A DNA stretch of 28,161 nt, from the IMG/VR virus record IMGVR_UViG_3300031227_000310, positions 1 to 28,161 of that record. One strand, 5' to 3'. The notes under the pieces were generated by a model. The model had not been told where the DNA came from and ran no database searches. It worked only from the letters and a program-made list of their open reading frames with translations. How positions within the stretch are numbered: the first letter of the stretch is position 1; every line of letters begins with the position of its first letter. Made by a program: the position numbers and the translations under genes. Of the stretch, positions 1,630-28,161 are shown piece by piece. This stretch comes from a virus.

Positions 1630-1648
1630 TCAGAAACCAAATAATAAT

Positions 1649-2302: not shown

Positions 2303-2305
2303 ACA

Positions 2306-2407: not shown

Positions 2408-2428
2408 CCCAGCGTTGGGCAAATAATT

Positions 2429-2695: not shown

Positions 2696-2702
2696 TCGCC
2701 CA

Positions 2703-2724
2703 ACACTAAAACTGAACCATCTAA
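2703..2724 (+). repeat. 22-bp direct repeat, copy 2
   Basis: Exact second copy of 2382-2403, lying between the stop of the DUF7352-like gene and the start of the exonuclease gene. It looks like a leftover of the 3' end of the small membrane protein gene. Confidence 0.9.
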
Positions 2725-2732
2725 TAAATAAT

Positions 2733-3671: not shown

Positions 3672-4309
3672 CAGTCAAAGAAATAACTGAGAAGATTAAA
3701 CTCCATGTTCTTTGGTCAGAAGGTGATGCAATGGGAGAGATAGCCAACTTCCGTGGAGCCGACCTCCGTAAAGCCGACCTCAGTGGAGCCAACCTCAGTG
3801 AAGCCAACCTCCGTGGAGCCAACCTCAGTGAAGCCGACCTCCTTGGAGCCAACCTCCGTAAAGCCGACCTCCGTGAAGCCGACCTCCGTGAAGCCGACCT
3901 CAGTGGATCCGACCTCCGTGGAGCCGACCTCAGTGGAGCCAACCTCAGTGAAGCCTACCTCCTTGGAGCCAACCTCCGTAAAGCCGACCTCAGTGGAGCC
4001 AACCTCAGTGAAGCCAACCTCCGTGGAGCCGACCTCCGTGAAGCCAACCTCCGTGAATCAGTGATTCACGCATCTGTATGTTGGTCAGATCATGGCGAAT
4101 GTGGGCGAATATTGATGGCTTATAGCATAAGGCCGTTTAAAAAAGTAATATACTCATGTGGATGTTTTTCAGGAGAGATAGAGGATCTGTTAGATTACAT
4201 CGATAAGGGGAGTGATGAATTCTCAAAATCTCGCAAACTAGCCTGCTCTTTCATCAGGGATAGAATTAATGAAATGATTATATCAAGAAAGGAATACTTA
4301 GAAAAATGA
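3668..4309 (+). CDS. Pentapeptide-repeat protein
   Basis: This 213-residue protein has a short N-terminal cap, then about 21 consecutive pentapeptides of the A(D/N)LXX type (residues 26-130), predicted to form a right-handed quadrilateral beta-helix. A non-repetitive C-terminal domain follows (about 131-213) with several cysteines (CWSDHGEC, CGCF). The family includes DNA-mimic proteins that bind gyrase, but most members have no known role, so none is assigned. It lies between the exonuclease and a coiled-coil recombination-module protein, coupled on both sides by ATGA overlaps, with an AAGGAG ribosome site. The C-terminal domain was not recognised. Confidence 0.9.
   Translation: MTVKEITEKIKLHVLWSEGDAMGEIANFRGADLRKADLSGANLSEANLRGANLSEADLLGANLRKADLREADLREADLSGSDLRGADLSGANLSEAYLLGANLRKADLSGANLSEANLRGADLREANLRESVIHASVCWSDHGECGRILMAYSIRPFKKVIYSCGCFSGEIEDLLDYIDKGSDEFSKSRKLACSFIRDRINEMIISRKEYLEK
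3743..4057 (+). repeat. Homogenised 15-bp tandem array inside the pentapeptide gene
   Basis: About 21 copies of a 15-bp unit of the form GCC(A/G)ACCTC(C/A)GTGRA follow without interruption. Larger blocks are also repeated. 3762-3820 recurs at 3972-4030 (offset 210) with no difference seen. 3818-3871 recurs at 3938-3991 (offset 120) with one difference. Synonymous positions are nearly uniform, which points to recent expansion or gene conversion rather than protein-level selection alone. The array opens long false frames on both strands. Confidence 0.95.
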
Positions 4310-5214
4310 CACAAATAATATCAGAACCAGCAGAATCAACTGAACTCATCTCGCTTGAGAAGTTCACTTCGAAGGAAATCTACGATCCCAATACCGGGTT
4401 AATGGAAACACTTCTCCAGAAGCTCGACACCGTATCAGCCGGTATAATCAAAACGATGGAAGGTGATACCAAGGATGGGCGAACCCTCTGTATGCGGAAC
4501 AAGAATAAAGTGGTTGCCCTACAAAAGATTTTCGACACCGCCAAGAAGTTTGAAACGAAGGAATTGAAAGAGCAGACTAATGCGATCGATCGACTTGGGA
4601 AACTCGCAAATGACAAATGCGAGGAGCTTAAAACCGCGATGATGAAACCCCGCAAAGAGTTCGAGGAAAAGCTAGCCGCCCGCCAGGCTGAACATATGAG
4701 CCGACTGAATATGATTACGGAGAAGCGTAATCATACCGGGCAGATACTTGGAAGGCATTTGATCGAACTGAACGCTCGAATCGCTTTTATCTCCGGGATG
4801 ACGATTGGCCCAGCTTGGGAGGAATTCGAAACGAGGGCTCGATCGGAATGGAAGTTGACCAAGGATTATCTCGATAATGAGATAACCACTGTCACTCAGG
4901 CGATTTCGGATAAAGCTCGATTGGATGAACTAGAGGCCGCTGAGGCAAAGCGGAAGGCTGAAACTGCCCAAGCGCCTTCACAGACTACGGAAGCCCCTAC
5001 AGCAGCCACTCAAGGACCGACAAACAACTCAGGCATCGCTACGACGCATGAGTTTGGAGCAGGAAATCAGAACGCTACAGTCGAACACCGACGGGACATC
5101 AACAGGGCGATCCTATCTGATCTAATCGGACTAGGACTCAACGCCGCCACATCGAAGCAGTTGATTCAATTGATAGCCGCTAACAAAATCAATCATCTCA
5201 AAATAGAATACTGA
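4306..5214 (+). CDS. Coiled-coil early protein of the lambdoid recombination neighbourhood
   Basis: This 302-residue protein resembles an uncharacterised family found next to phage exonuclease and annealing genes. Features shared with it are an N-terminal 'GL---L-K' segment (about 30-40), a central long coiled coil with 'LK--M--PRKEFEEKLAAR' (about 112-130), an Ala/Thr/Pro-rich linker (about 215-250) and a conserved C-terminal 'N-AI---L-GL----S-QLI--IA-NKI-HLKIEY' block. Its biochemical role is not established; scaffolding of recombination proteins would be inference. The start overlaps the pentapeptide gene by ATGA, with AAAGGA upstream. The stop is followed one base later by the next ATG. 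Confidence 0.7.
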   Translation: MTQIISEPAESTELISLEKFTSKEIYDPNTGLMETLLQKLDTVSAGIIKTMEGDTKDGRTLCMRNKNKVVALQKIFDTAKKFETKELKEQTNAIDRLGKLANDKCEELKTAMMKPRKEFEEKLAARQAEHMSRLNMITEKRNHTGQILGRHLIELNARIAFISGMTIGPAWEEFETRARSEWKLTKDYLDNEITTVTQAISDKARLDELEAAEAKRKAETAQAPSQTTEAPTAATQGPTNNSGIATTHEFGAGNQNATVEHRRDINRAILSDLIGLGLNAATSKQLIQLIAANKINHLKIEY

Positions 5215-5215
5215 T

Positions 5216-5746
5216 ATGTCACATATAATTAATAAACTAACAATCACCCCAAACTCATTGAAGTTGGAGTTCTCAAACGACTTGAAAGATCCATTCGTTC
5301 ACATTGCCGAAATATCAGGAATGCGAGATGAATCCCTTCAAAGTCACATCGATGCGATTGCCGAACGGGTAATCAGCGAAAAGATGGACAGTTACGAGGA
5401 GGACAAAAATCAGCTTTCAATGTTTGACGATGACGGGGAAGCGAAAGCTCATAAAGCCGCTGAAGAGGATCCTACCAATTTTGCTGACCCGGATGGAGAA
5501 GCGGAAGAAGAAGATTATTCTATGATGGCAGTCCCGCTCATTAACGGAACTCAAATGCCGTCATTTAAGAATATGCTCACCGAGCACGCCGCTTGGTACA
5601 TTCACAACCACTACACAGGGGAGGATGGTGAACCAGGCATAGGCGACCTCATTCAGGACATAAAGCATTCCCTTGACGCTGTTATTGATGACAATCTGAA
5701 TCTATCGGATGCTAAACTTGTCGCCATCGACTACCTGCAATTCTAG
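5216..5746 (+). CDS. Acidic early protein with possible clamp-binding motif
   Basis: This 176-residue protein was not recognised as a family. It has an N-terminal mixed domain (1-60), then QLSMF at residues 66-70 (codons at 5411-5425), a very acidic linker (71-100) and a helical C-terminal domain. QLSMF is close to the QL(S/D)LF motif that binds the bacterial DNA-polymerase sliding clamp, and its position next to a flexible acidic stretch would suit such use; this is inference from sequence. It lies between the coiled-coil protein and the helicase loader and is followed by a strong terminator. The start lacks a Shine-Dalgarno sequence. Confidence 0.6.
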   Translation: MSHIINKLTITPNSLKLEFSNDLKDPFVHIAEISGMRDESLQSHIDAIAERVISEKMDSYEEDKNQLSMFDDDGEAKAHKAAEEDPTNFADPDGEAEEEDYSMMAVPLINGTQMPSFKNMLTEHAAWYIHNHYTGEDGEPGIGDLIQDIKHSLDAVIDDNLNLSDAKLVAIDYLQF

Positions 5747-5764
5747 TTAACCCCAAACCAAAAT

Positions 5765-5804
5765 GGGGGAGTAGTGGAGAGACTGCTCCCCCTCTTTTTT
5801 TTTT
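5765..5804 (+). terminator. Strong intrinsic terminator abutting the helicase-loader start
   Basis: A 10-bp stem (GGGGGAGTAG with CTGCTCCCCC, one G-U pair) and an 8-nt loop occupy 5765-5792. CTC and a run of ten T residues follow at 5795-5804. It lies in the + strand operon only four bases before the ATG at 5809, so read-through or antitermination would be needed for downstream genes. Confidence 0.85.
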
Positions 5805-5808
5805 AATT

Positions 5809-6627
5809 ATGGCATTCCCAATTCGATTAAGCCACATGGCAGCAGCAGGTGAGAACCTCCTAGCTGCCCTAATGCATTGCAATCTAAACATAGACCCAGA
5901 GGAGAAGAGTAAGGTTAAATTCAAATGCCCGAAATGCACCGAGAGCGTCATTGTTCCTCAAAGTCACTTCAATCTATTCGGACCGACAACGGTTTGCGAT
6001 CCATGCACCGCTAAACGGAAAACGGATGTTCGAATGGATGATGCAAAGTTATTCTGGAGTAGAACGTGTCCAATTTCTTTCCGCAATACCGATATTAAGC
6101 ATGAGAAATTCAACCTCAATGCGTACAACCGAGCGAGGCAGATCTCTATGGATTCTGGATACAAGGATTCAATCGTACTCTATGGCGACACAGGTTCATG
6201 CAAGACGCGCATTGCTTGCCAGTTGGCAAAGATGGCATTGGCCAACGGGAAAACGATTGCTCTCCACTTTCCAGAGGATCTAAAGGACCGCCCGCGCTTC
6301 CAAAGCAGAAAGGAAATCCTGGTTAACCTGACTTCACCGGATTTCATTGTTCTCGATGACATCTTCATTGCTGGAGCAGCCAAGGAGGACACCGCGGATT
6401 TCATCAAGGATTTAATTGATCGCCGCTACCGGAATAACAAAGCGACGATTATCACTTCACAATCAACGGCAGAGGACTTCGCAACGGATGCGAGGAAGTT
6501 CGGATCAATGTCGCCGGTCGAGTACCAACGTATTGAGGCAATTGTGAGAAGGGTCAGGGAATCATTCACCTGCATCGATTGCGACAACTTGTCGGAACTG
6601 GAAACTGAAGAAGAGGGGAGATTCTAA
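5809..6627 (+). CDS. DnaC-like helicase loader ATPase
   Basis: This 272-residue protein is a predicted AAA+ ATPase of the DnaC/IstB helicase-loader type. It would bring the host replicative helicase to phage DNA. An N-terminal zinc-finger pair (C40/C43 and C63/C66) precedes the ATPase core. The core has Walker A GDTGSCKT (126-133, with Cys replacing the usual Gly before Lys), Walker B FIVLDDIF (179-186), sensor-like TIITSQS (213-219) and a terminal Arg-rich segment (RRVRE). The chosen ATG at 5809 has no Shine-Dalgarno sequence and follows a T tract directly; ATG 5836 (MAAAGEN) is an alternative that keeps all motifs. Domain order and size are typical for phage loaders. Confidence 0.85.
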   Translation: MAFPIRLSHMAAAGENLLAALMHCNLNIDPEEKSKVKFKCPKCTESVIVPQSHFNLFGPTTVCDPCTAKRKTDVRMDDAKLFWSRTCPISFRNTDIKHEKFNLNAYNRARQISMDSGYKDSIVLYGDTGSCKTRIACQLAKMALANGKTIALHFPEDLKDRPRFQSRKEILVNLTSPDFIVLDDIFIAGAAKEDTADFIKDLIDRRYRNNKATIITSQSTAEDFATDARKFGSMSPVEYQRIEAIVRRVRESFTCIDCDNLSELETEEEGRF

Positions 6628-6629
6628 TC

Positions 6630-6818
6630 ATGAGTGAATCAAAATACAAAATACAGATATGGTCCAAGTGGTCTAAAAGCTACACGACTCCGACCTACAA
6701 GATAACGCTTGTGATCGGGCATCAGTCCTTCGAGCTGGAATATGAAGGCGATACTATGGAAGATGCCAAATGGATGGCAGAGCAGTTGAAGACCGGAATG
6801 GATAGGATAGTGAAATGA
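6630..6818 (+). CDS. Small hypothetical protein
   Basis: This 62-residue protein has no recognised family. It has alternating polar and aromatic residues that suggest two or three beta strands (KIQIWSKW, YKITLVIG, FELEYEG), followed by one helix. It starts three bases after the helicase-loader stop, with a strong AGAGGGGAG ribosome site, and ends in an ATGA overlap with the next gene. It is probably co-translated with the helicase loader. No role is assigned. Confidence 0.6.
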   Translation: MSESKYKIQIWSKWSKSYTTPTYKITLVIGHQSFELEYEGDTMEDAKWMAEQLKTGMDRIVK

Positions 6819-7021
6819 AACGTCTTAAAAAAAAACAGATAGGTCCTTGGTGTAGCTACTGTGAACCAAAGACAACTAAAGCCACTCATCGGCAAGATGG
6901 ATTCGCTGATATATTTTGCTGTCACAATCATAGATATGAGTTGATTCTCAATGAACAGGAAAACCGAAAAATCGATACGCATATGACTGAAGCGGATTAT
7001 GAAACTTGGAATTCCTTATGA
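6815..7021 (+). CDS. Small putative zinc-binding protein
   Basis: This 68-residue protein is basic at the N-terminus and carries CSYC (13-16) and a CCHNH cluster (about 35-39). That Cys/His pattern could form one zinc-binding site, as in small HNH- or ribbon-type phage proteins, but no catalytic motif is clear. An ATGA overlap joins it to the previous gene and another ATGA to the next one. The ribosome site is GATAGGAT. The metal-binding idea is inference; the protein is otherwise unrecognised. Confidence 0.6.
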   Translation: MKRLKKKQIGPWCSYCEPKTTKATHRQDGFADIFCCHNHRYELILNEQENRKIDTHMTEADYETWNSL

Positions 7022-7356
7022 AGAAACCCAAGCCAACACTCCTCAGCCTCCCGGCCAAGCCAAAGAAGGACAATTCCGTTCAGGAGTTGGCCAACTACAT
7101 TCGCTTCATCGAGAAGGACTGTAAACGGAGATGGGTATCGTTCCTGCATCCTATACATGGGAAAGTTACCGGACGCTGCCTACGGGCCTCTCACGCGGGT
7201 CTACAGCAGCCAGGGAACCATTTAGACTTCACTCTAACCATTGAAGGCCGAGCAAAGTCCACACTCAACACGATCGACGTTTCGATGATCGAGACCTACG
7301 CTCAGTTCTTCGACACCAAACAACTAGCCATCAACGATTGTAAATCATATGAATAA
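7018..7356 (+). CDS. Hypothetical early protein before the resolvase
   Basis: I chose the ATG at 7018, which gives 112 residues. It forms a classic ATGA overlap with the previous stop, whereas an in-frame TTG at 7006 would be an unusual start. The protein is basic near the N-terminus (KKPKP, PAKPKK), contains a helix (VQELANYIRFIEK) and then beta-type segments (WVSFLHPIHGKVTG, HLDFTLTI). No family was recognised. Its stop overlaps the RuvC-like gene start by eight bases, so the two are likely translated together and may act in the same DNA-processing step. Confidence 0.6.
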   Translation: MKKPKPTLLSLPAKPKKDNSVQELANYIRFIEKDCKRRWVSFLHPIHGKVTGRCLRASHAGLQQPGNHLDFTLTIEGRAKSTLNTIDVSMIETYAQFFDTKQLAINDCKSYE

Positions 7357-7867
7357 ACGAATCCTAGCCCTAGACATCTCGCTCCATACTGGATGGTCAT
7401 TCCAAGTCGGAGACGGACCAGTCAGTACGGGAAACGAATCATTCACTATCAAACCCAAGGTCCGGGCTACAATGACGAAGGAGCAAATTCTAGGCGAACA
7501 GTGTCTCAGCTTTGCCAAGTGGATGCGGGAAATGCTACGTGACTGGAACCCTGACGAAGTTGCAGTCGAAAAGGGATTCATCAATGTCAGCAATTCAACG
7601 GAGATTCTTTTCATGCTCCAGGGAGTTCTAATGCTCAACACCAGATACCGGGATATAAACGTCTTCAGATACGCTACATCATCACTCAAGGCTTATGCCC
7701 TAGTACCGGGATACGGAAAACGCTACCCGGACCTCTCAGCCCCCCATCGCCGCAAAGCGATCAAGCTGGAAATGCTGGAAGCTGCCAAAGCGAAAGGCGC
7801 CGACGTCGCCAATGATGACGAGGCTGATAGTTATCACTGCTTGTGCCTTCACAAGTCCAAGGCATAA
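7349..7867 (+). CDS. RuvC-like Holliday junction resolvase
   Basis: This 172-residue protein has the RuvC/RNase H-like fold signature: LALDISLHTGW (6-16, first catalytic Asp at 9), VAVEKGF (71-77, catalytic Glu at 74) and an acidic C-terminal motif NDDEADSYHC (155-164) carrying the final carboxylates. Length is close to bacterial RuvC. It would cut four-way junctions left by recombination or branched replication DNA before packaging. It is the last gene of the early operon and is followed by a terminator shared with the converging late operon. The start lies inside the end of the previous gene without a clear Shine-Dalgarno sequence. Confidence 0.9.
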   Translation: MNKRILALDISLHTGWSFQVGDGPVSTGNESFTIKPKVRATMTKEQILGEQCLSFAKWMREMLRDWNPDEVAVEKGFINVSNSTEILFMLQGVLMLNTRYRDINVFRYATSSLKAYALVPGYGKRYPDLSAPHRRKAIKLEMLEAAKAKGADVANDDEADSYHCLCLHKSKA

Positions 7868-7894
7868 AAAAGCGCCATCCAAACGGATAGCGCT
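7866..7894 (-). terminator. Terminator between converging early and late operons
   Basis: An inverted repeat (7871-7880 with 7885-7894, 4-nt loop) lies between the resolvase and the tailspike. Read on the - strand it is a 10-bp stem with one G-U pair followed by TTTTTT, a good end signal for the late transcript. Read on the + strand it has one mismatch and is followed only by CTTTA, so it is a weaker stop there. Confidence 0.8.
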
Positions 7895-7918: not shown

Positions 7919-9886
7919 CTAAACCGCTATCCAATTGGCGGTGTCATAAGCAGCATAATTAACAGTTGCATTAGCGGCTAAACTAATTGCCGTATTTGCT
8001 CCAGCTCCCAAAGTATCACCACTGGCAGGAAACACGTCACAAGCCGCTGCTCCGCTGTTGATTATAGTAATTATAGTTCCAGCAATTGCGCCAGGAAGCG
8101 TCACGGAGTCACCTGCATTTGCACAAACGGATATTTGATTGATCTTAGAAACAAGAGGACTTCCTCCTTGAGCAGATCCAGTTGAAGCCGTTATCGTTGC
8201 CGTTACGCTAGACAAAGAAGAATCTTGGTACCCTCCAGGAAGTCCATCGGCTGAACAAATGTACCCCCAAGGACCAGTTACGCTACTTGAAACGTAGCGC
8301 TCTCCCTTGTAGTGCCTTTCACCAGTAATATCATTAGGATCTCCATCAATGGTATGAAGCTCTTTTACCCATAGAGTGTTTGTGGGTGTTGTGTTTGGCC
8401 TAACCCACCGAAGCTCAGACGGAGCAGTTCCAAGAACCTCAATAGTGTTCCCTTGAGTTATTAGACTTACATTGCTTGTGCAAAGCAAATCCAAAGCCTT
8501 AAAGAAATCTACATAATAAGATGCGTTTCCTCCGTCTATAATCAATGAGTTTTTTTCAAGCTTAATCCTAGCTGTGTTGGTAGCAGTGGAATAAGTATTA
8601 TTTCCGATAGAGCTTACCGTAAGATTGGCAGATAGATTTCCTCCAACAAGTACATCATTGTGAGAAAATGAAACATTCTTTCCTTGATGCAACCTAAAGA
8701 CTTCTTGAAGGCCAGTTGCGGAAACCAAGTCAAATTGGTTGTGGTGAATGTTTACGTTTTCCAAGAAGTAAGTTCCGCTTGAATCTTGTTCGCCACAACT
8801 AACAGTTGGTACGGCGTTTTTGCTACCGTTTGAAAAACAATTAGTAATCTCTACGTTTCTGCAATCGTTAGTCGGATCGTTAGTGATATGGAAAGCGCCG
8901 TCATAAGCATCATAGGCCCTGCAACCAGACAACTTGCACCCGTTTACGCGAGCTATGTTAAAGGCAGATCTAAACGATGCCGCTGGAAAAGCCAAGTGGT
9001 GATCTATTGAAATACATCCATTGATAAAATGATCCTCACCCTTGGCGGAATAATAAGCATGTCTTCCCGTGTTTATTGCCACGCAGTTGTTAATGCTTAC
9101 GTGTTTTGCGTTTAAGTGATAGCCATATCCGGTTCCTGAATTAACTCCTAAAATGTCTTCCACAATGCAATTATTTATAGAGCTATAGGTTACATCTTGT
9201 GATGTTTCATCTCCCAGCGCCAATCCAAGAGACATAGTGCTAACGGTTATTCCGTTGTATTGAATGTTTTTGTAAGATCCTCCAGATGCGCACTGAATCC
9301 CCCTGTGGCCAACTTCGGCAACTCCAGACCCATCAACGGTTTCATGTCCAACTAATTTACCACCTTGAATTGTTACGCCAACGCACGCTCCAGATAGCTT
9401 GAAACAAGGTATTGTGTTAACCAAATCAGCCGCAGCTCTATTGTCGATAACAGCCCCATCCAATACGATTTTTACGTTTACCATATTGGCCAATTCAATA
9501 CTTGACTCAATCCGGTAACTAAACCCCGCTGGAAAAACAACAGTAGAATTTGTTAGGCCATCAGGAAGTGCCAATTGAATTGCGGGCCTGTCATCAGTGG
9601 CCCCGTCGCCCGTCGCCCCAAACATCTTGACCGAGATACTGCTCTGATCCGTTCGGATAAACCGCCCCGTTGTCGTGTCGGCTAGTTTGACGATTGTCCC
9701 GTTGTCATCGGTAGCCGTACTAGAAGCGTCCCAGAAGAAGCCACCGCCGCCGCTATCGCCCTCGGTAGTGTGACCGGATACATCAGCCGTCTCGTTGTCG
9801 GTAAGCCCTTCACCGGACAATAGACGAAGATTCGCCAAACTGTCGAAGGTGTGTCGGCGTGTGTTGCCTTGGATGGATATGCTCAT
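7919..9886 (-). CDS. Tailspike with beta-helix (pectate-lyase-type) domain
   Basis: This 655-residue protein is the likely receptor-binding tailspike. The N-terminal region (about 1-85) carries the common phage 'head-binding' layout ending in GRFIRTD. Residues ~86-105 show SVKMFGATGDGATDDRPAIQ, the entry motif of pectate-lyase-like right-handed beta-helix enzymes. The middle (about 110-480) is repetitive and Asn/Gly/Ser-rich, as expected for beta-helix coils. The last ~75 residues form a separate beta module (DSVTLPGAIAG...NWIAV) shared by many phage fibres. It may degrade surface polysaccharide; the catalytic residues were not identified. It overlaps the ejection-protein stop (TAATG) and is last in the late operon. 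Confidence 0.9.
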   Translation of the reverse strand: MSISIQGNTRRHTFDSLANLRLLSGEGLTDNETADVSGHTTEGDSGGGGFFWDASSTATDDNGTIVKLADTTTGRFIRTDQSSISVKMFGATGDGATDDRPAIQLALPDGLTNSTVVFPAGFSYRIESSIELANMVNVKIVLDGAVIDNRAAADLVNTIPCFKLSGACVGVTIQGGKLVGHETVDGSGVAEVGHRGIQCASGGSYKNIQYNGITVSTMSLGLALGDETSQDVTYSSINNCIVEDILGVNSGTGYGYHLNAKHVSINNCVAINTGRHAYYSAKGEDHFINGCISIDHHLAFPAASFRSAFNIARVNGCKLSGCRAYDAYDGAFHITNDPTNDCRNVEITNCFSNGSKNAVPTVSCGEQDSSGTYFLENVNIHHNQFDLVSATGLQEVFRLHQGKNVSFSHNDVLVGGNLSANLTVSSIGNNTYSTATNTARIKLEKNSLIIDGGNASYYVDFFKALDLLCTSNVSLITQGNTIEVLGTAPSELRWVRPNTTPTNTLWVKELHTIDGDPNDITGERHYKGERYVSSSVTGPWGYICSADGLPGGYQDSSLSSVTATITASTGSAQGGSPLVSKINQISVCANAGDSVTLPGAIAGTIITIINSGAAACDVFPASGDTLGAGANTAISLAANATVNYAAYDTANWIAV

Positions 9887-13485: not shown

Positions 13486-14169
13486 TTATCGACCTCCTGT
13501 TATTCCAAAGTTCTGCTCTCTAAATCCCTGATTCTGACCACCAGATAAACCGTACCCAGCTATTCCTCCAATATCCGCGAGACCGCTCGAATAGCTCTGC
13601 GCTACTCCTAATCGTCCCTGAGCGTTCGCTGCTCCTCCTTGAGCGACTAGATTGGCCTGAGTGTTCGCCGCGTTTGCCGCAACCCCTCCTGTGGCCGCTG
13701 CCGCTCCGTAGCCTGTATTTACGCCAGTGTCCAATCGGTTGAGATATTGCTGTCCAAAGTCGTACTTGATCCGTTGTAGACGATCGCTTAGAGCTGCCAA
13801 TCGGTTTCCGCTTCTAAGCTGACCCGTTGCCGAAGCTCCTCGGTTCACGTCATCTCGAACAAACTCGTTCTGCTGAGTGAGAACGGGATCGTCGTAAACA
13901 TTGTTCCAAGCGTTTGTCTTGTCCTGCTGAGTGCCTTGAAGCCCTAGCAAGACATTCCTACGGTTTAATGACGGAATCCCTGAATCAGTGTAAGGTTGAA
14001 GCGTCTGCTTGGTGTCCTGGTAATTATCCCTGACAATCTGACCAGCCTCAGCCGTAGCTCCTGCCTGTATCTTAGCAGCAGATTTCGCCCCTTTAGCCGA
14101 AATTGCTCCTCCAGCGATCGATGCTCCACCGACGACCGCTAATGCTCCCCACCCTATTGCGCTAGACAT
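13486..14169 (-). CDS. DNA transfer/ejection protein, P22 gp7-like
   Basis: This 227-residue protein has an N-terminal Ala/Gly-rich hydrophobic helix (about 5-35, WGALAVVGGASIAGGAISAK), then a helical region with 'QPYTDSGIPSL' and a 'RGASATGQLRSGNRLAALSDRLQ' region (about 108-130). These match the gp7/DNA-transfer family pattern of 'PY--AG--AL' followed by 'A-GG--SG---A-L'. The C-terminal third is Gly/Ala/Asn-rich. P22 gp7 is an ejected virion protein. The start has GGAGG and overlaps the end of the SET-domain gene by 16 bases. Order (gp7, gp20, gp16, tailspike) matches P22. Confidence 0.8.
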   Translation of the reverse strand: MSSAIGWGALAVVGGASIAGGAISAKGAKSAAKIQAGATAEAGQIVRDNYQDTKQTLQPYTDSGIPSLNRRNVLLGLQGTQQDKTNAWNNVYDDPVLTQQNEFVRDDVNRGASATGQLRSGNRLAALSDRLQRIKYDFGQQYLNRLDTGVNTGYGAAAATGGVAANAANTQANLVAQGGAANAQGRLGVAQSYSSGLADIGGIAGYGLSGGQNQGFREQNFGITGGR

Positions 14170-15077
14170 TGAAGACCTCCGTTTCCGTTTGTTTTGATGT
14201 AGTTATCCAAGTAATTCATTGTGATTTCGGTCCCCTTGCTGATGTCTTCCAACGCTGTCGCATCGTTACCGACTAGCCAAGCATTAGGTTTAAATGAGTG
14301 ATTCGAGTATCTCGCTAGTATCGTTCGGTTGCCTTCCATGAACACTGGAAATCGTTCTCCCTTTTCGATGTCCCTAGTAGTGAAAGTTCCCATTCCATCT
14401 ATTTCTGATACTCCTAAGTCGATTGATCCGCAAGGAATGCCTTCAGGTTCGCCTTGATCGTTCATGTAGTAGTCGATTGCTTCCTGTGATACTCCTGCTA
14501 TCTTTTTAAAGACTTCGTATTCTCCGAGCTCTGGATGATCCTTGGATGATTCGAAGTAGAGTTGATCTAGCTTCTCTTCATCTCTCTCATTTGTCGGATT
14601 GGCAAAGGTGTTAGTGAATTTCACTCCATCGATCGTTATACCGAGCTTTCGCACACCAGGACTGGAAATGAATACGTCTCCAGCTAGAAAGTAATTTGCC
14701 CCAGTTTCAGTGAAGACAATTACATCTCCCTGAACAACCGAGTTGATTGTTTCAACCTTATGCTCTGCTCCTGTGACGATCGACATAGGAGAAAGAACCA
14801 TTTCCTTAACCGATACTCCGTCCGAGTGTATCCAGCTCATTGAGCATTCTGCCCCGCATAAATCGAACCGTTCACGATTCGCAAGATGGGCTTCTATCTC
14901 ATCCACTGCCGAATCAAAGGTTTCCTTGTCGAACTCACCTACCAAACGAGACACGTTCAAGCCAATGAAATCATCCATCGTCTTGAGGAATGGCGGGATC
15001 TGTTGAATCCCTTCAGCCATTTCAAGCTTCTGCTTCTCGTCTAGTGAATCGTAAATATGAGCTTCGGTATCTGCCAT
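14154..15077 (-). CDS. SET-domain protein in the virion cassette
   Basis: I chose the ATG at 15077 (307 residues), behind AGGA; the frame upstream offers only a TTG. The C-terminus carries a compact SET domain (about 219-290): SEIDGMGTF (224-232), DIEKGE (236-241), the pseudoknot motif RYSNHSFKPN (256-265) and DISKGTEITMNY (278-289) with the catalytic-type Tyr. SET domains use S-adenosylmethionine to methylate lysines. Residues 1-215 were not recognised and contain a mixed alpha/beta region. It lies between small beta-structured proteins and the gp7-like gene, where P22 has gp14. The substrate is unknown; virion, host protein or a non-enzymatic structural role are all possible. Confidence 0.85.
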   Translation of the reverse strand: MADTEAHIYDSLDEKQKLEMAEGIQQIPPFLKTMDDFIGLNVSRLVGEFDKETFDSAVDEIEAHLANRERFDLCGAECSMSWIHSDGVSVKEMVLSPMSIVTGAEHKVETINSVVQGDVIVFTETGANYFLAGDVFISSPGVRKLGITIDGVKFTNTFANPTNERDEEKLDQLYFESSKDHPELGEYEVFKKIAGVSQEAIDYYMNDQGEPEGIPCGSIDLGVSEIDGMGTFTTRDIEKGERFPVFMEGNRTILARYSNHSFKPNAWLVGNDATALEDISKGTEITMNYLDNYIKTNGNGGLQCLAQ

Positions 15078-15088
15078 GTCTCTATTTC

Positions 15089-15457
15089 CTAATTCACTGA
15101 AAACCAATTGCAGGTTTCGCCACTAACTGAGCTGTCTACCCATACCGCGTCAGTGTTTGATATGTCGATGCTGATTAACTCACCAGAAGCTAGAGGGAAG
15201 CCGTTTGAAGCAGCAACCGTACTGTTGCCCACGTAGATAATCCCCGTGTTCGCTGCCGCTGCCTTCACCGTTATCGACTTAGCTGTAGTCGTAGCAAATT
15301 GAACTCTCGTCGTTGCGGTTGTAACCGTTACGAGCGCTGAACTAATCGTTGTTGGCAATGGGAAGTTCCCCACTTGAACGGGTAGCTTCCCGTCTAATGG
15401 ATCGGCGTGAACCGTACCATCGGAATTTCTTAATCTGACTGCTCCAAATTTACTCAT
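15089..15457 (-). CDS. Beta-structured virion protein
   Basis: This 122-residue protein is Thr/Ala/Val-rich and almost wholly beta-strand in pattern. It contains ITVKAAAANTGIIYVGNSTV (about 61-80) and an ending of the type 'SGE-I-ID-SN-DAVWVDSSV-GE', seen in many small phage structural proteins of unknown exact role. It lies right after the gp10-like gene and another beta protein, the place where P22 has the tail needle. It may decorate the head or tail; it does not show the coiled coil of a needle. It is joined to the previous gene by an ATGA overlap. Confidence 0.65.
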   Translation of the reverse strand: MSKFGAVRLRNSDGTVHADPLDGKLPVQVGNFPLPTTISSALVTVTTATTRVQFATTTAKSITVKAAAANTGIIYVGNSTVAASNGFPLASGELISIDISNTDAVWVDSSVSGETCNWFSVN

Positions 15458-21067: not shown

Positions 21068-21199
21068 TTTGACAACTTGCTTGTTGAACGCCACTCGGAT
21101 TGAGCGACGTAGGACATTCAAATGTCGTACCCCTATTAACGAAAGGGGAAAATGAGGGCAATGGGGCTGGTTTTAGCCGAAAAACGGCCTAGCCAATTA
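21068..21199 (-). other. Leader between HNH gene and scaffold, with small palindromes
   Basis: This 132-bp spacer contains a perfect palindrome GACATT-CA-AATGTC (21113-21126), a short CCCCT/AGGGG stem (about 21130-21149) and overlapping GGCT/AGCC stems near 21165-21193 with a T-rich loop on the - strand. They may form mRNA hairpins ahead of the scaffold gene. I found no clear promoter. Confidence 0.4.
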
Positions 21200-21751
21200 C
21201 TATTCCATGAATTTGTTCAATGCTTCTGGCATATACCCAAATTCAGTTGCTTTGGCGTTCCAGGCAATAGCGGCCTCTTTTTCTGTGCTGAAAGAACCGA
21301 GATGATACGTCTTTTTGTTAAAAACAGTCTGAGCAACCCATTTTGAATTAATATCACGGCGGCAAACACCTCGATACTTACTCGTCACCCCAGTTTGTGG
21401 TTTTTGGTAACCTCTGAGGTTCTCTTTATTCGTCACCATCCTTAATTGAGATGGCCGATTATCGGTCTTTTTACCTTTTATATGATCTACTTTTAGATCT
21501 TCTGAGTATTCAGGATCGAATGCTCTAGCAACTACTCTAGCAACTAATTTCGTAGACATCAATGAATCCTTATAAAACGAAACCGTTAAGTATCCCTTTT
21601 TATTAGGTGTAAGTTTCATTATCCTAGCATTGCTAAACCATAGCGACTTCACTCGGCCAATGTCGGAAACTTCATAAATACCTTCATATCCAATAATTGG
21701 CTTCCATTGCTCGTCATCAAGTGACACACCTTCTTTGTTGATTTTAACCAT
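21200..21751 (-). CDS. HNH homing endonuclease with NUMOD4 and AP2-like domains
   Basis: This 183-residue protein is a free-standing HNH endonuclease. In order: a NUMOD4-type start (EQWKPIIGYEGIYEVSDIGRV, about 14-34), a short DNA-contact region, the HNH core VDHIKGKKTDNRPSQLRMV (about 87-105) with 'NKENLRG', and an AP2-like DNA-binding domain (YRGVCRRD...KKTYHLGSFSTEKEAAIAWN, about 124-165). It lies between portal and scaffold, where it serves no assembly role, and is flanked by hairpins. It is probably a selfish element that spreads by cutting genomes that lack it. It has no Shine-Dalgarno sequence. Confidence 0.9.
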   Translation of the reverse strand: MVKINKEGVSLDDEQWKPIIGYEGIYEVSDIGRVKSLWFSNARIMKLTPNKKGYLTVSFYKDSLMSTKLVARVVARAFDPEYSEDLKVDHIKGKKTDNRPSQLRMVTNKENLRGYQKPQTGVTSKYRGVCRRDINSKWVAQTVFNKKTYHLGSFSTEKEAAIAWNAKATEFGYMPEALNKFME

Positions 21752-21763
21752 TCAACGATTAAA

Positions 21764-21796
21764 GGCGCTTGGGGCTACGACCTCAAGGGCCTTTTT
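21764..21796 (-). terminator. Hairpin at the end of the portal gene
   Basis: An imperfect 11-bp inverted repeat (21764-21774 with 21781-21791, 6-nt loop) lies just after the portal stop. On the - strand it is followed by TTTAAT. On the + strand it has one mismatch and one G-T pair and is followed by TTTTT, so it may be bidirectional but weak for the late transcript. Confidence 0.5.
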
Positions 21797-21798
21797 CG

Positions 21799-23922
21799 TT
21801 ATACGGCTGGAGGTTGTGGTGATTGTTGACTCTTTTGCTGTGCAGCCTGCTGTTTTTCCGCTGAAGCTTGCTGGGATTCCCTCACCTGAACTTCTACTTG
21901 TCCAATCGCTAATTCAGCAGCAGTGATATCTTTTAATGATCGAATACCTTTATTTTCTATCATCTCCTGAACCTGTGCCCAATTCTCGGCGGTTTCGGAT
22001 CTGATCTTTTCATTCTCAAGTTCGATTTGATCGATCTTTGCTACTCTTTCTTCAAGAGATGCTACCATCATTTCAAAATTCAATTCCTGAATCGGATCAG
22101 GTTTCTGCTTAGACTTCATTTCCTCTTCCTCTTCAGGAGTTGGATCGATGTAGCCTTCTTTGATTCCAAGCTTGCGAGCTCTAGCCGATGCTTCTTTCGA
22201 ACCTGGGAAATCCATGTTCTTCAATACCAAGTCAGTAGTCGTTTGTCCGATGATCGGGCTAGTGCGACCTGCCTCTGTTAAGTAGGCTACGGCTTCTTCG
22301 CGCTTAGTAGCGAACGATGGGCCGACATCGACCTTCATATCGTACTTCCCGACACTGAGGTCGTTTAACACAACCTCTTCGCCCGTCTGCTCATCAATAA
22401 CAACTTGATTGATCTGCACCAGATCGACATCGCCATCTTCCTTCAATATCCGCTCGATTCTAGTGCCGTCGTAAATTGGAGGTATCATACCGATGATGAT
22501 CCGCCCAGTATGCTCGATCATCTTCGCGTGATTATCGGTGATCTCGTAAGTACCGTTGAACCCTTGCCGTTGCTGAGTCTTTAGAGCAATGCCGCTTTGA
22601 TCTCTTGGATTGTCGCCCAGAGAAGGAGCATGGTAGCCCGTAGCTGACATTATATCGCTCTCCGCCTGTCTTATCCGGTTGATTTGAGCTGCTTGAACGG
22701 CTGGAGCTCCCGTTCTCCTCGGCGGTCCCGCATTCTCGGGATCTGGATTGAAAAATTGTACTGGCGCATTGTCGGTAGCCATTCGAGCAAGATCGCCTTC
22801 GTAGCCTTCCGCTTGCTTCGTAGATACCCAATAAGGATCTTTCGGAGCCAATGCCCCTGTTTCTACGCTGCTCGAAGTCTCGTAATTGTAGACACGCTGA
22901 GGATCTTTCGCCTTGCGGATCATTCCGCAGTAGTAATGAACTCCGTCGATCCAAGAGCTGTAGCCGTAGCCAAGAACGATTGGTAGCTCCATGCCGGGAA
23001 TCTCGTGAGGCCCATCAAGAACCTCGCCTCCGGAAAGCTTGTAGTGAAGAACCTTGTGAGACGAAACCACCTTGATCTGACTTTGCGTGATTCCGTTCTG
23101 GGCGAGTTCGTCTTCTATCTTCTCAAAGTCTTCGTTCTTCTCGTAGGTCTGCCCATTCGTCATCAAAACCAAAGTCTTCTTCGTAGGCTCTTTGACGTAA
23201 TAATCCGCTACCTTTATGAAATCCTGCGTTCGCCAGCCCGATCGTACCCCGTTGATTCCAATCAGATTGAAATTGGCCGCCTTGCTTAAAGGCCAACGCT
23301 TCTCAAAGCTCTCAGGACTCCAATTCTTCACAACGCTAATCCATTTCGCGTCCTTGTGACAGTCCTCTACCGATTCTGGATCTACGGAAACAGTAGTAGC
23401 CGCCGAACGAATCGGCTTGAGATAGATTTCCTGATCCCACCCATCGTCTACGGTGTACCGCGTACATACCTCCCATGCACCAATCCCGCCCGTCGCCATT
23501 TCCTTCAATCCGTTGTCTTTCCACGAATCGCCTGAATTATCTCGAATGCTGCGTACAACACCTTCGTAAATCTCCGCAATATCTTGCTTCGCTCCGCCAC
23601 CCTTTGGCCTAACGCGAATCTCTACACGATTCTGAAGCTGATCGCCCAGGAACTGGTTACGCGCAGCAGCAACCCGATTGATCTCGTACATCGGACGCTT
23701 CGCCCTCTTTCGCCCACGAGAAGCTATCTCATCCCACTGAGAACCCGGCTTGTCGCAAAATAACGAATCCTCTACGCATAGCTGTCGCTCGTCCTGCTCG
23801 AATTGCTCAGAAGCCTTGTGCCGATCCATAGCAAGATCGTGAGCCGCTTTATTCGCAGCCGATTGCTCGCTGGTTTTCTGTTTAGAAACCTTACCGGAAC
23901 CGTCAGTAGCCGAATACTCCAT
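21799..23922 (-). CDS. Portal protein, P22-type
   Basis: This 707-residue protein is close in size to P22 portal (725) and shows its pattern. There is an N-terminal helical region, RPMYEINRVAAARNQFLGDQ (about 76-95, the portal entry helix), NRVEIRVRPKGGG (about 98-110), AEIYEGVVRSI, the 'GGIGAWEVCTRY' strand (about 145-156) and a later 'DVDLVQINQVVID' segment. The C-terminus (about 610-707) is a long Glu/Gln-rich coiled coil ending in a Q/S/A/P tail, analogous to the P22 barrel. It forms the dodecameric DNA channel and terminase dock. It has no Shine-Dalgarno sequence. Confidence 0.9.
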   Translation of the reverse strand: MEYSATDGSGKVSKQKTSEQSAANKAAHDLAMDRHKASEQFEQDERQLCVEDSLFCDKPGSQWDEIASRGRKRAKRPMYEINRVAAARNQFLGDQLQNRVEIRVRPKGGGAKQDIAEIYEGVVRSIRDNSGDSWKDNGLKEMATGGIGAWEVCTRYTVDDGWDQEIYLKPIRSAATTVSVDPESVEDCHKDAKWISVVKNWSPESFEKRWPLSKAANFNLIGINGVRSGWRTQDFIKVADYYVKEPTKKTLVLMTNGQTYEKNEDFEKIEDELAQNGITQSQIKVVSSHKVLHYKLSGGEVLDGPHEIPGMELPIVLGYGYSSWIDGVHYYCGMIRKAKDPQRVYNYETSSSVETGALAPKDPYWVSTKQAEGYEGDLARMATDNAPVQFFNPDPENAGPPRRTGAPAVQAAQINRIRQAESDIMSATGYHAPSLGDNPRDQSGIALKTQQRQGFNGTYEITDNHAKMIEHTGRIIIGMIPPIYDGTRIERILKEDGDVDLVQINQVVIDEQTGEEVVLNDLSVGKYDMKVDVGPSFATKREEAVAYLTEAGRTSPIIGQTTTDLVLKNMDFPGSKEASARARKLGIKEGYIDPTPEEEEEMKSKQKPDPIQELNFEMMVASLEERVAKIDQIELENEKIRSETAENWAQVQEMIENKGIRSLKDITAAELAIGQVEVQVRESQQASAEKQQAAQQKSQQSPQPPAV

Positions 23923-24576: not shown

Positions 24577-26250
24577 TCACGACCATTCTGACTCAAAACG
24601 AATGCGGATCGGCTTACCCGCTTTTACGTTATCCACCGCAAACGCCATATTGGCGGCATCCCACAAATTAGGCGAGGAAACCCCTCTGGAACGCATCTCT
24701 GGCTTGCTCTCAACGAGGATCTTCCCATTCCCCCGATACTTCCGCTGAGGTCGGCTCAACTCCGCAATCAGATTCGTCACACCTTCACACTGACTGCTGA
24801 TAGAGATCAACGTGTCAGGATCTTGATAAACTCCATGCTCGATTGCTTCAAACGTCCTCTCAAATCTCCTACGCAGCGAATACGCAGTCTGGGCCCTGTA
24901 ATTCGCAAACGCATCCCCATTGGTCTTATTCAGATCAACGCACTCGGATTTCTTATCCGCAACCTCTCCAGATCCATGAAAATGAACGATAGGAATCTCC
25001 TTCGCATCGAACTTGTCTTGAATCGAAAGCTTCACAATCGGAGCCCCCATGCCATCAGAGTCATAAACGAAGGCATCAAGACCATCTCCGTTCCTCTTAC
25101 CCATCGCGTAATCGACCACCCAAGGCAAAGCATCACGAATGTCGCCGGTCTTCATCTCCGAGCAATCCATTATTACGCTCCCATGCCGATACAGCCTCGC
25201 TTTCGCATCTCCAACGTCAGCAGGGTCAAACGAAACAACCTTCGTACCGCTAGGCTCGAATCCAAGACGAATATGAGCATCGATTGAAGCCCTTACCCAC
25301 TTCGCAGGGATAAACACGTTCTCAGCACTCGCATTGTAGTCCCGATCGATCTCCTGAGCTACCGTAACCTCGTCAAACGTAGCCTTCATCTTCACGTACC
25401 AAGGATAAACAGCCCCTAATGGAGAATCTCTCCCAACACCCTTCGTAACCTTCTTCGTCTCCTCGTCAACAAGCTCCCACTGGTTCTTCCTCGGATCATC
25501 ACGCCAATCGAACTCGAATACCTTCACCTTCCCAGAATGACGCTTCCGGTAAAACGCATTTCCATTCCCATTCGGTGTGCTAATATCAATCTGACAATTC
25601 GTGTTCTGAGACAGAGCCGCATTTACACGTTCCTGACGCTCAACATAAGCAGCCTCATCCACAAAATAAGCAGACTGTCGACCACCACGACCGATATTGT
25701 CTCCACACTCACCCGTTATCGTGCTCCCGTTCTCAGGGTTGATAAGACGCATCTCAGCCGAATGCTCTCGCTCGTTGAAACCCTCCGGACGGAATTCCTT
25801 CGGTATCATCCGAACCAACGGCCTAATCTTCTCGAAAATGCTCTTGGGATCTCCCTTCTTATCTACCAACTCCTCTTTACGACTACCAAAACCAGCAGCA
25901 AATCCAGGACGAAATAACCACATGCTCACAGACCAACCAACAGCCAGCCAAGTAACGCCCATGTCTCTAGACTTCTCAACCAGACCGCCTTCACCAGCTT
26001 CCCACCTCTGCGTAAGCCACTGCAAAAACTCTATCTGCCTGTCAAATGGTACGAATGGGATCTCAGCAGGCAAACCTCGCTCAACGTTACGCGGGTCGTA
26101 AGTCATGCCCCAATCCTTAACAAAGTCCCACGGAGCGCAGGCATAATGAGCCTTCATCATACCAACCATCTTAGGGTCTTTCCTCAGCTTCATCAAAAGC
26201 TTCGCCCTATTTGAAAGCTCCAACGGGTAATTCGGTTTCAAAAAGTCCAT
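24577..26250 (-). CDS. terL: Terminase large subunit
   Basis: This 557-residue protein is the DNA-packaging motor. The ATPase domain has a Walker A-type KSRDMGVTW (93-101), Walker B YFVDEA (195-200) and a coupling motif STPNGNG (224-230). The RNase H-like nuclease domain has SFDPAD (340-345), VYDSDG (395-400) and a C-terminal 'NLWDAANMAF' motif, giving the acidic triad. Length and order are standard. The start at ATG 26250 is supported by GGAG upstream and an in-frame stop just before it. Unusually, it is separated from the small subunit gene by 688 bases with no convincing gene. Confidence 0.97.
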   Translation of the reverse strand: MDFLKPNYPLELSNRAKLLMKLRKDPKMVGMMKAHYACAPWDFVKDWGMTYDPRNVERGLPAEIPFVPFDRQIEFLQWLTQRWEAGEGGLVEKSRDMGVTWLAVGWSVSMWLFRPGFAAGFGSRKEELVDKKGDPKSIFEKIRPLVRMIPKEFRPEGFNEREHSAEMRLINPENGSTITGECGDNIGRGGRQSAYFVDEAAYVERQERVNAALSQNTNCQIDISTPNGNGNAFYRKRHSGKVKVFEFDWRDDPRKNQWELVDEETKKVTKGVGRDSPLGAVYPWYVKMKATFDEVTVAQEIDRDYNASAENVFIPAKWVRASIDAHIRLGFEPSGTKVVSFDPADVGDAKARLYRHGSVIMDCSEMKTGDIRDALPWVVDYAMGKRNGDGLDAFVYDSDGMGAPIVKLSIQDKFDAKEIPIVHFHGSGEVADKKSECVDLNKTNGDAFANYRAQTAYSLRRRFERTFEAIEHGVYQDPDTLISISSQCEGVTNLIAELSRPQRKYRGNGKILVESKPEMRSRGVSSPNLWDAANMAFAVDNVKAGKPIRIRFESEWS

Positions 26251-26938: not shown

Positions 26939-27571
26939 TCACCCCATCAGCTGCTTATAGGCTTCGGACGCTGCTTCCGGGCTGAGTGACACATCTAAAT
27001 GAGCCGTGATCACTTTACCGGTAATCTCCGCTTGTATCCTGTCTCCGTAGCGCTTCGGGTCCCACTTGCTGAGCAGCTTCAACCGGGTTTCAACACGTAG
27101 CTTGCTCCGTTGAATCACTTCCGAGTTGGTTCGCTCGTTTCCGTCATCATCGGTGATCAAGTCCTTGCTTGAGTCATCTGCTATCCGAAGACAGTCGATG
27201 GCAATAGTGTCATGGCCTAGAAGACGCGCATGTGCGATGCTTGAGGCGAATGCCTCGTCTTCGTCTCTCCATGCCTTGAGAGTCCATGCGCTGGGTAGTT
27301 CTGCGATGTCTCTACAAACTACCGCTTCGGGAGTCCCGGTTGAAATTGCTTGAATCACTTTGCGCTTAACTTCTGCTTTCTGCTCTGGGGTGAAGTAGCG
27401 TGATCTTCCGTCTGGCTCTTTTTTCGCTCTGGTTGCTACGATTTCGAGAGGCTTGGCTTCTTGCTTGGCAATAGACTTGAGTAGGTTTCTGCGTAGTGTC
27501 TTCTGCCTTGTGGGTTTGCGTGCGGCTGGCTTTGTCTTGGGTTGCTTTGTCTTGGGTTGCGTCTGTTTCAT
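26939..27571 (-). CDS. terS: Terminase small subunit
   Basis: This 210-residue protein is the DNA-recognition part of the packaging machine. It has a very basic N-terminal tail (about 1-50, with a KQPKTK repeat encoded by a duplicated 15-bp unit), a helix-turn-helix-like region (about 65-105: 'VIQAISTGTPEAVVCRDIAELPSAWTLKAW', split here as two helices) and an oligomerisation region with 'IADDSS' and 'LRVETRLKLLSKWDPKRYGDR' (about 150-176). The last two are characteristic of small terminases of this type. It is the first late gene, about 220 bases downstream of a good - strand promoter. No Shine-Dalgarno sequence precedes its ATG. Confidence 0.85.
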   Translation of the reverse strand: MKQTQPKTKQPKTKPAARKPTRQKTLRRNLLKSIAKQEAKPLEIVATRAKKEPDGRSRYFTPEQKAEVKRKVIQAISTGTPEAVVCRDIAELPSAWTLKAWRDEDEAFASSIAHARLLGHDTIAIDCLRIADDSSKDLITDDDGNERTNSEVIQRSKLRVETRLKLLSKWDPKRYGDRIQAEITGKVITAHLDVSLSPEAASEAYKQLMG

Positions 27572-27649
27572 GCTGGTATGTTGTGGTTAGGTTGTGGAAG
27601 TGGGCAATGGGATTAGGTATCGCGGTACGTCTGTGGATTGTTTGGGTGA

Positions 27650-27750
27650 TTGTGACGGCGTGGACGGCACAATGGTGTTGGATTGGCTGTGATGTCGAGA
27701 GAATAGGGTGGGGGTGGAGGGTTAGGCGGTTGTGACGGCGTTAGACGGCG
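27650..27750. repeat. GACGGCG repeats in the late leader
   Basis: TTGTGACGGCGT occurs at 27650-27661 and again at 27730-27741, exactly 80 bases apart. A further GACGGCG follows ten bases after the second copy (27744-27750), and GGACGGCA is at 27662-27669. The spacing of about one and eight helical turns would suit a binding protein. They lie downstream of the late promoter, in its mRNA leader. Confidence 0.6.
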
Positions 27751-27793
27751 TTAGACTGCTGCAGTTGATGAGGATACCGGGCGAGGGGTGAGA

Positions 27794-27821
27794 CATATAC
27801 TCAAACGGGAGTGAATGTCAA
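27794..27821 (-). promoter_or_regulatory. Candidate late promoter
   Basis: On the - strand TTGACA (perfect sigma70 -35) is followed after 16 bases by TATATG (4 of 6 for the -10). It would start transcription about 215 bases before the small terminase ATG and could drive the whole late operon. It is the best promoter match found in the window. Confidence 0.55.
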
Positions 27822-27870
27822 ATCGAGTTTTTGTAGGTGTGTGAGTGGGGTTGAGATGGGGGTAAGCGGG

Positions 27871-27931
27871 TAGGCAATTATTGCCCCTTTTGGATAGTAC
27901 CTAGACTAGGTAGGTAGGCAATATTTGCCTA
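27871..27931. promoter_or_regulatory. Operator-like palindrome cluster
   Basis: Two copies of TAGGCAA-N3-TTGCC (27871-27885 and 27915-27931, the second extended to TTGCCTA) flank a perfect 15-bp palindrome TACCTAG-A-CTAGGTA (27898-27912). Paired symmetric sites between divergent promoters are typical of repressor binding. The binding protein is not in the window. Confidence 0.65.
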
Positions 27932-27938
27932 GTAGAGC

Positions 27939-27954
27939 TGGGAAGGATTTCCCA
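27939..27954. promoter_or_regulatory. TGGGAA/TTCCCA inverted repeat
   Basis: TGGGAA and TTCCCA form a perfect 6-bp inverted repeat with a 4-base centre, eight bases past the palindrome cluster and upstream of a + strand promoter candidate. It could be another operator or a small hairpin. Confidence 0.45.
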
Positions 27955-27979
27955 ATGTTTAGTTTATTGAACATATTGA

Positions 27980-28007
27980 TTGACTCGTTGCAGTAGTGTG
28001 CTAGTTT
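27980..28007 (+). promoter_or_regulatory. Candidate early promoter, extended -10 type
   Basis: TTGACT (5 of 6) is followed after 16 bases by TAGTTT, with TGC directly before it as in extended -10 promoters. The -10 is poor (3 of 6), so this is a weak call, but it faces the + strand gene at 28077 and lies next to operator-like palindromes. Confidence 0.35.
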
Positions 28008-28029
28008 TTGGTTGTTGGCTGAGTTATAG

Positions 28030-28064
28030 CTGACACGGGCCGAGACGATCTCGGTAATTTTACC
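28030..28064 (+). promoter_or_regulatory. Candidate promoter with palindromic operators over the spacer and -10
   Basis: CTGACA (5 of 6) and GGTAAT (4 of 6) are 17 bases apart, pointing towards the gene at 28077. A perfect palindrome CCGAGA-CGA-TCTCGG (28040-28054) sits in the spacer and touches the -10. A second one, GGTAA-TT-TTACC (28053-28064), covers the -10 itself. Such placement is what a repressor operator needs. The resulting leader would be only about a dozen bases. Confidence 0.45.
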
Positions 28065-28076
28065 CTCTTATATCTT

Positions 28077-28161
28077 ATGCAGACCGACACCAAAACCACC
28101 TACCGCATCAAGGCCGAATTTAGCTATTACCCAGGGACATGCTACGCTCCTGTTGATGGGT
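28077..28161 (+). CDS. Start of a + strand gene cut by the window edge
   Basis: An ATG frame is open for 28 codons to the right edge (MQTDTKTTYRIKAEFSYYPG and on). Its composition is normal and it begins right after the palindrome-covered promoter candidate, with no Shine-Dalgarno sequence and an AT-rich leader (TATATCTT) as in other genes here. It is likely the first gene of a + strand early operon continuing beyond the window. Too short to identify. Confidence 0.5.
   Translation, partial: MQTDTKTTYRIKAEFSYYPGTCYAPVDG

Follow-up and report, generated by a model that had tools for sequence, protein, structure and literature searches.

A probable divergent control region upstream of the terminase genes of an uncultured P22-like phage, and a paired palindromic motif recurrent in phages

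The 505 bp that separate the small terminase gene from the last, rightward reading frame of an uncultured phage very probably form a cis-regulatory region, in which dimer-type sites lying between back-to-back promoters control two divergent units, the leftward terS-terL-structural block and a rightward one. Two of the sites share the core GGCAA-N3-TTGCC, and paired sites of this kind are a recurrent phage motif, reported here as new. The stretch analysed, called the window below, is the entire IMG/VR virus record IMGVR_UViG_3300031227_000310 (28,161 bp), which is classified as linear and as a probable fragment; judged by its gene content, it is a 28-kb piece of a P22-like podophage. Genes for the small and large terminase subunits, portal (PHROG 156, E 5e-124), scaffold, major head protein and head closure occupy the − strand from 27571 to 7919, and the + strand carries replication genes from 122 to 7867 (exonuclease, DnaC-like loader, RuvC-like resolvase). 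The features of the control region and its flanking genes are collected in Table 1.

Table 1. Control region of the window and the genes that flank it
Feature	Positions	Strand	Basis
terL, terminase large subunit	24577..26250	-	PHROG 5989, E 1.2e-15; 88% aa identity in L017
terS, terminase small subunit, heads leftward structural block	26939..27571	-	PHROG 1482, E 1.5e-23; Pfam Sf6_terminase, 80 bits
Intergenic control region, terS to rightward gene, 505 bp	27572..28076	.	G+T rich on + strand
Leftward sigma-70-like promoter candidate TTGACA-16-TATATG (TTGACA 27821-27816, TATATG 27799-27794)	27794..27821	-	matrix score 10.0, rank 11 of window, both strands
Palindromic site 1 (TAGGCAATTATTGCC 27871-27885; core GGCAA-TTA-TTGCC 27873-27885), class GGCAA-N3-TTGCC (candidate UAS/operator)	27871..27887	.	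sequence and motif class
Palindrome TACCTAG-A-CTAGGTA, close to the region's axis	27898..27912	.	sequence
Palindromic site 2 TAGGCAA-TAT-TTGCCTA, perfect, 7-base arms, class GGCAA-N3-TTGCC	27915..27931	.	sequence and motif class
Palindrome TGGGAA-GGAT-TTCCCA (TGGGAAGGATTTCCCA)	27939..27954	.	sequence
Rightward sigma-70-like promoter candidate TTGACT-16-(TGC)TAGTTT	27980..28007	+	matrix score 9.9, rank 13 of window
13-mer TTGCAGTAGTGTG, exact half of the sibling's 47-bp palindromic repeat, in spacer of rightward promoter candidate	27988..28000	+	sequence match
Weak sigma-54-like -24/-12 element TTGGCTGAGTTATAGCT, GG-N10-GC kept, TAGC for TTGC	28015..28031	+	9.6 bits, rank 7 of window
Block adjoining rightward gene, partly kept in L002 (GGGCCGRGNCGAT...CTCGG..AATT.TTAC), includes CCGAGA-CGA-TCTCGG	28036..28062	.	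local alignment
Palindrome CCGAGA-CGA-TCTCGG	28040..28054	.	sequence
Palindrome GGTAA-TT-TTACC	28053..28064	.	sequence
Rightward ORF start, ATG 28077 (MQTDTKTTYRIKAEFSYYPGTCYAPVDG...), cut by contig end	28077..28161	+	sequence

The sequence-only reading of this DNA had seen in it a transcription switch with paired palindromes between divergent operons. The palindromes that it named are all present and exceed chance. Counting arms of 6 bases or more and loops of up to 4 bases, 27794-28077 holds five, whereas dinucleotide shuffles average 0.24 and none of 500 reached five; nowhere else in the window do 200 bp hold as many palindromes. The two GGCAA-N3-TTGCC cores (the second at 27917-27929) lie 44 bp apart in non-coding DNA, an arrangement of at least two dyads within about 60 bp such as was used to define membership in the motif group. 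The perfect TTGACA described on the − strand was likewise recovered and belongs to the top promoter-like site of that strand in the region. The promoter placed on the + strand over GGTAATTTTACC fared worse, being weak (CTGACA-17-GGTAAT, 28030-28058, rank 181) in comparison with the TTGACT-16-TAGTTT candidate upstream of it. The two best sigma-70-like sites of the region are thus divergent, with most palindromic sites lying between them rather than over them. The outer edges of the two -35 boxes and the centres of the TAGGCAA sites (27879 and 27923) are separated by 58 and 57 bp, and the midpoint of the pair agrees to half a base with that of the promoter-like sites, a mirror symmetry noticed post hoc. 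The sigma-70 and sigma-54 matrices used here are approximations of the consensus sequences, and a stricter consensus scan found no promoter.

Searches with the intergenic DNA against isolated phages and with the control region against Rfam gave no match, and no family was matched by the rightward ORF from 28077. Sulfitobacter phage pCB2047-A has one gene in common with the window and carries no mismatch-free GGCAA-N3-TTGCC site. The + strand is about 71% G+T over 450 bp within 27400-27900 (4.4 sd above the mean), so biased that a leftward leader RNA would be C+A rich. The leader of the late operon (27642-27757) contains repeats of GACGGCGT, two copies of a TTGTGACGGCGT-like element and two tandem copies of GACGGCGTTA. 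Elsewhere in the window, inspection by eye pointed to a pentapeptide-repeat-like protein with many A(D/N)L(R/S) repeats within the replication block (3668-4309) and, in the structural block, to an ORF (14154-15107) whose C-terminal part resembles a SET-domain methyltransferase (N-H-S...N-A...Y motifs).

Only one close relative in terS-terL was found, a 13.9-kb contig (L002/L178) with 78-80% nucleotide identity over long stretches and a TerS 56% identical in amino acids. Its intergenic region shows a similar strand bias (G+T 68%). The palindromes TAGGCAA, TACCTAG and TGGGAA are absent from that region, and its alignment with the window is weak except directly before the rightward gene, where a local alignment of about 95-110 bp around the block at 28036-28062 scores 58 (best of 1000 shuffles, 52.5); among viral contigs the block is matched by L002 only. 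Loss of the palindromes beside conserved flanking genes had been named beforehand as an outcome that would count against a switch. L002 did lose them while keeping terS, terL and portal, but its first rightward gene, which matches no family and is unlike the short readable start of the window's ORF, seems to be a different one. The absence of the palindromes in L002 therefore speaks, not decisively, against an essential conserved switch.

A sibling contig (L175, L176), whose identity with the window is mostly 98-99.8%, reaches 9.4 kb further left than position 1. It carries twice, 289 bp apart (L176:8121-8167 and 8410-8456), a 47-bp element that forms a long imperfect palindrome (ACTACTGCAAACATTGTTTGCAGTAGT) in a 1.4-kb divergent control region between a leftward operon and the rightward replication operon. 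The leftward operon starts with a 57-aa ribbon-helix-helix-like ORF. Half of the 47-bp element recurs exactly in the window as the 13-mer of Table 1, a match with E about 0.8 over the searched 51 kb that counts only by virtue of its place in control DNA; it hints that the two control regions may share a regulator. The part of the sibling that is missing from the window also encodes a peptide deformylase, an MT-A70 methylase, an N6/N4 DNA methylase and a tRNA-Thr (L176:4070-4534, 6083-6670, 6941-7870 and 9012-9087, respectively). Within the otherwise ~99% identical part, window positions 21199-21954 are swapped for other sequence in the sibling; an HNH/NUMOD-like ORF recognised by eye at 21200-21751 makes this stretch likely to be a mobile insertion of homing-endonuclease type.

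When viral contigs were scanned for pairs of GGCAA-N3-TTGCC sites with 10-40 bases between them, 87 loci came up; two controls with rearranged arms yielded 21 and 24, and for pairs outside ORFs of at least 120 aa the counts were 43 against 2 and 7. Four related phages (L091, L106, L108, L159) differ in much of their intergenic DNA, yet all keep three sites unchanged at 21-bp steps, and equally invariant is CTGGCAT-N3-AGTTGCA, a sigma-54 -24/-12 promoter sequence with GG-N10-GC. Among these viral loci, which were picked by the motif itself, strong sigma-54 sites occurred at 1.33 per kb within 250 bp of non-coding pairs (30 sites) and at 0.059 per kb elsewhere (21 sites), counted before dereplication. 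After dereplication, 10 of the 32 non-coding clusters had a sigma-54 promoter of at least 14 bits directed away from the sites, in most cases at a distance of 40-70 bp, compared with a frequency of 0.003 at random places. The 22 clusters lacking a strong promoter in that orientation score at most 8.4 bits, so the motif may have other users; the flanking bases (TA versus CG) did not clearly split sites with and without sigma-54 promoters. Three further strong-promoter cases (L114, L144, L173) had initially been filed as coding since an ORF of at least 120 aa covers their sites. The order of leftward terL-terS, sites and rightward sigma-54 promoter recurs in the L091 family, L102, L138 and L114, and the window matches it with its leftward terL-terS, sites and rightward gene. 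Two arrays (L094:10597-10652, L144:6167-6221) are flanked on either side by strong sigma-54 promoters that point away, and one enhancer array may there serve two divergent transcripts. Three proteins adjoining the sites in L138 and L114 matched nothing in isolated phages, leaving the arrangement with no cultured example. Palindromes before terS are not a general feature: this idea was rejected, as in terminase-fetched relatives palindromes upstream of the terminase were only mildly above shuffles (55 against 31) and mostly A+T-rich.

In bacterial chromosomes, searched with one genome per species for GGCAA-N3-TTGCC together with a -24/-12 promoter, at least 119 stretches were found where plain base arithmetic expects about 15. 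The matches listed include many from Alphaproteobacteria and some from Gammaproteobacteria, and 25 of 92 downstream ORFs among them are Flg_bb_rod; others encode flagellin, FlgH, FlgI, FlgK, FliK or FlgA. Since the motif-promoter pair often precedes flagellar genes in bacteria, the motif most likely serves a flagellar enhancer-binding protein as its upstream site, and the host activator that uses it is probably of the FlbD/FlrC class. A few Bacillales matches among those listed precede NMT1-like binding-protein genes, so here, too, the motif may be used by more than one regulator. Fourteen downstream ORFs among the matches listed (L226-L344) have GGDEF domains, many of these loci being alphaproteobacterial, which suggests that diguanylate cyclases belong to the same sigma-54 regulon.

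For the window, these observations lead to the tentative proposal, held at somewhat less than even likelihood, that a host flagellar-type regulator acts at the paired TAGGCAA-N3-TTGCC sites. The pair would serve as upstream activating sites for host sigma-54 flagellar activators of the FlbD/FlrC class; we infer that the host has such an activator and that it binds there. Bound to the pair and brought round by looping, it would switch on the rightward genes, possibly through the -24/-12-like element at 28015-28031 as promoter. Alternatively, the activator could tune the sigma-70 promoters, a possibility that arises because FlbD is also reported to repress: it binds ftr sites and activates some flagellar genes and represses others (PMC3930126). 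In favour of a host activator, the window pair has the same core as the sigma-54-linked phage sites and is centred between the two divergent promoter-like sites. Against it, the nearest relative, L002, is without TAGGCAA sites, and the element lies 85 bp from the sites with 9.6 bits, when all clear cases score at least 14 and the other clusters at most 8.4; its score falls in the gap of an otherwise two-humped distribution and is reached by 4.8% of random places in the window and sibling and by 8.6% in the viral loci. A strong -24/-12 element of at least 14 bits pointing away from the sites was not found in the window. With so weak and distant an element, membership of the window in the sigma-54 class is not established; it is a candidate, not a proven member, of the phages that combine GGCAA-N3-TTGCC with sigma-54 promoters. 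A Sigma54_activat domain was not recognised in 31 phage records, many of them fragments, including the window, the sibling and L002. The proposal in its widest form is that diverse uncultured phages, this one included, carry enhancer sites of a host flagellar sigma-54 activator, often by their terminase genes, which would confine part of the phage programme to times at which the flagellum is being built, with the degenerate element at 28015-28031 acting as the promoter here; in that form we consider it rather unlikely.

A divergent control region with several dimer-type sites remains the best description of this DNA, given palindromes beyond chance, back-to-back promoter-like sites and a 13-mer shared with the sibling. 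What could not be upheld of the earlier reading is, besides the + strand promoter, its suggestion of a lysis-lysogeny or early-late switch run by phage regulators. It had stated that the window holds no regulator gene, and none was recognised; apart from a weakly ribbon-helix-helix-like ORF in the sibling, neither a recognised repressor nor an integrase was present among the scanned ORFs of the window and the sibling's extra 9.4 kb, with part of the genome missing from both. It is nevertheless possible, at well under even likelihood, that small dimeric repressors or activators of the phage's own occupy the palindromes and decide between the leftward late genes and the rightward ones. Several different palindromes between back-to-back promoter-like sites favour such operators, half of a repeat present twice beside the sibling's 57-aa ORF occurs in the window, and the loss of sites in L002 fits a fast turnover of operators. 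The recurrence of GGCAA-N3-TTGCC in unrelated phages would be odd for operators that evolve fast, and the 57-aa ORF is not claimed here as a regulator: its Pfam match is weak and below the cut-off, and its model, which has two helices, found no match in the PDB.

The other functions that might explain the palindromes have little to recommend them. Recognition or cutting by the small terminase (a pac or cos site) was an early idea, favoured by sites that lie directly upstream of terS (start 27571) and by the many non-coding GGCAA pairs that adjoin terS-terL in other phages; it was dropped after the enrichment of sigma-54 sites near non-coding pairs had been seen. The same sites accompany sigma-54 promoters in the phages with clear cases, they are lost in L002 despite its similar TerS, and controls with other palindromes near terL are few, which makes a packaging site clearly improbable. 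On whole contigs, the position of the motif relative to terL shows only moderate bias. An origin of replication with iterons bound by an initiator is very improbable as well. Twelve pattern matches do lie within winged-helix replication-initiator-like genes, as the lambda iterons do, and one strand of the region has a strong G+T skew; yet the neighbourhood has no initiator gene, 20 kb of the fragment separate the region from the replication genes, the main site has two copies only and the skew also extends over the 5' end of terS. Pairs or arrays in such initiator-like genes (L089, L097, L100, L111, L135, L141, L166, L171) are apparently a different use of a similar motif. Transcription terminators, or inverted repeats without function that arose by chance, have only the slightest probability: the hairpins at 27868-27886 and 27939-27954 score as weakly terminator-like on the + strand and the palindromes are not kept in L002, but their number is far beyond that in shuffles, a U-run of typical length is lacking, and terminators would be unexpected between divergent promoters.

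For the window alone the result is more modest, a control region that is very probably real. If the wider proposal holds, infection would be tied to motility through a phage promoter that answers to the host's flagellar sigma-54 network, and the motif-promoter pattern offers a testable link between phage timing and flagellar assembly. The pattern is short and searchable, and may help to predict the hosts and the regulation of uncultured phages.

Temperate phages of the lambda and P22 type have operator regions in which several dimer sites lie between divergent promoters. The window resembles them in its divergent promoter candidates with several dimer-type sites in between, and differs in that no repressor gene was found, the palindromes are of unlike types and most sites lie between the promoters, not over them. 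Flagellar sigma-54 promoters with FlbD ftr or FlrC/FleR sites (PMC3930126) share with it dyad sites upstream of a -24/-12 element, and the combination of GGCAA-N3-TTGCC with a sigma-54 pattern precedes bacterial rod, hook and ring genes; the differences are that the window's element is weak and its motif a presumed equivalent of ftr. The nearest precedent in phages is that of CtrA, whose sites in alphaproteobacterial phages were proposed to defer lysis ('lytic deferment'), in a study that also tested GcrA, SciP and DnaA sites and whose text contains neither 'FlbD' nor 'sigma54' (PMC9437464). There, as is proposed here, unrelated phages have sites of a host motility-linked regulator and control their own genes through them, but the regulator and the motif are others: CtrA sites (TTAA-N7-TTAA) were absent from the window, the sibling L176, L002 and 11 tested motif-bearing loci. 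The coupling to motility would resemble that through host CtrA in some alphaproteobacterial phages, but would use a type of promoter, sigma-54, that depends on an ATP-driven activator to fire. A search of the open-access literature found nothing on phage promoters using FlbD-type sites, nor on this motif. CtrA thus already provides a case of phages with sites for a host motility regulator, and FlbD-type sites coupled to sigma-54 promoters in phages would be new.
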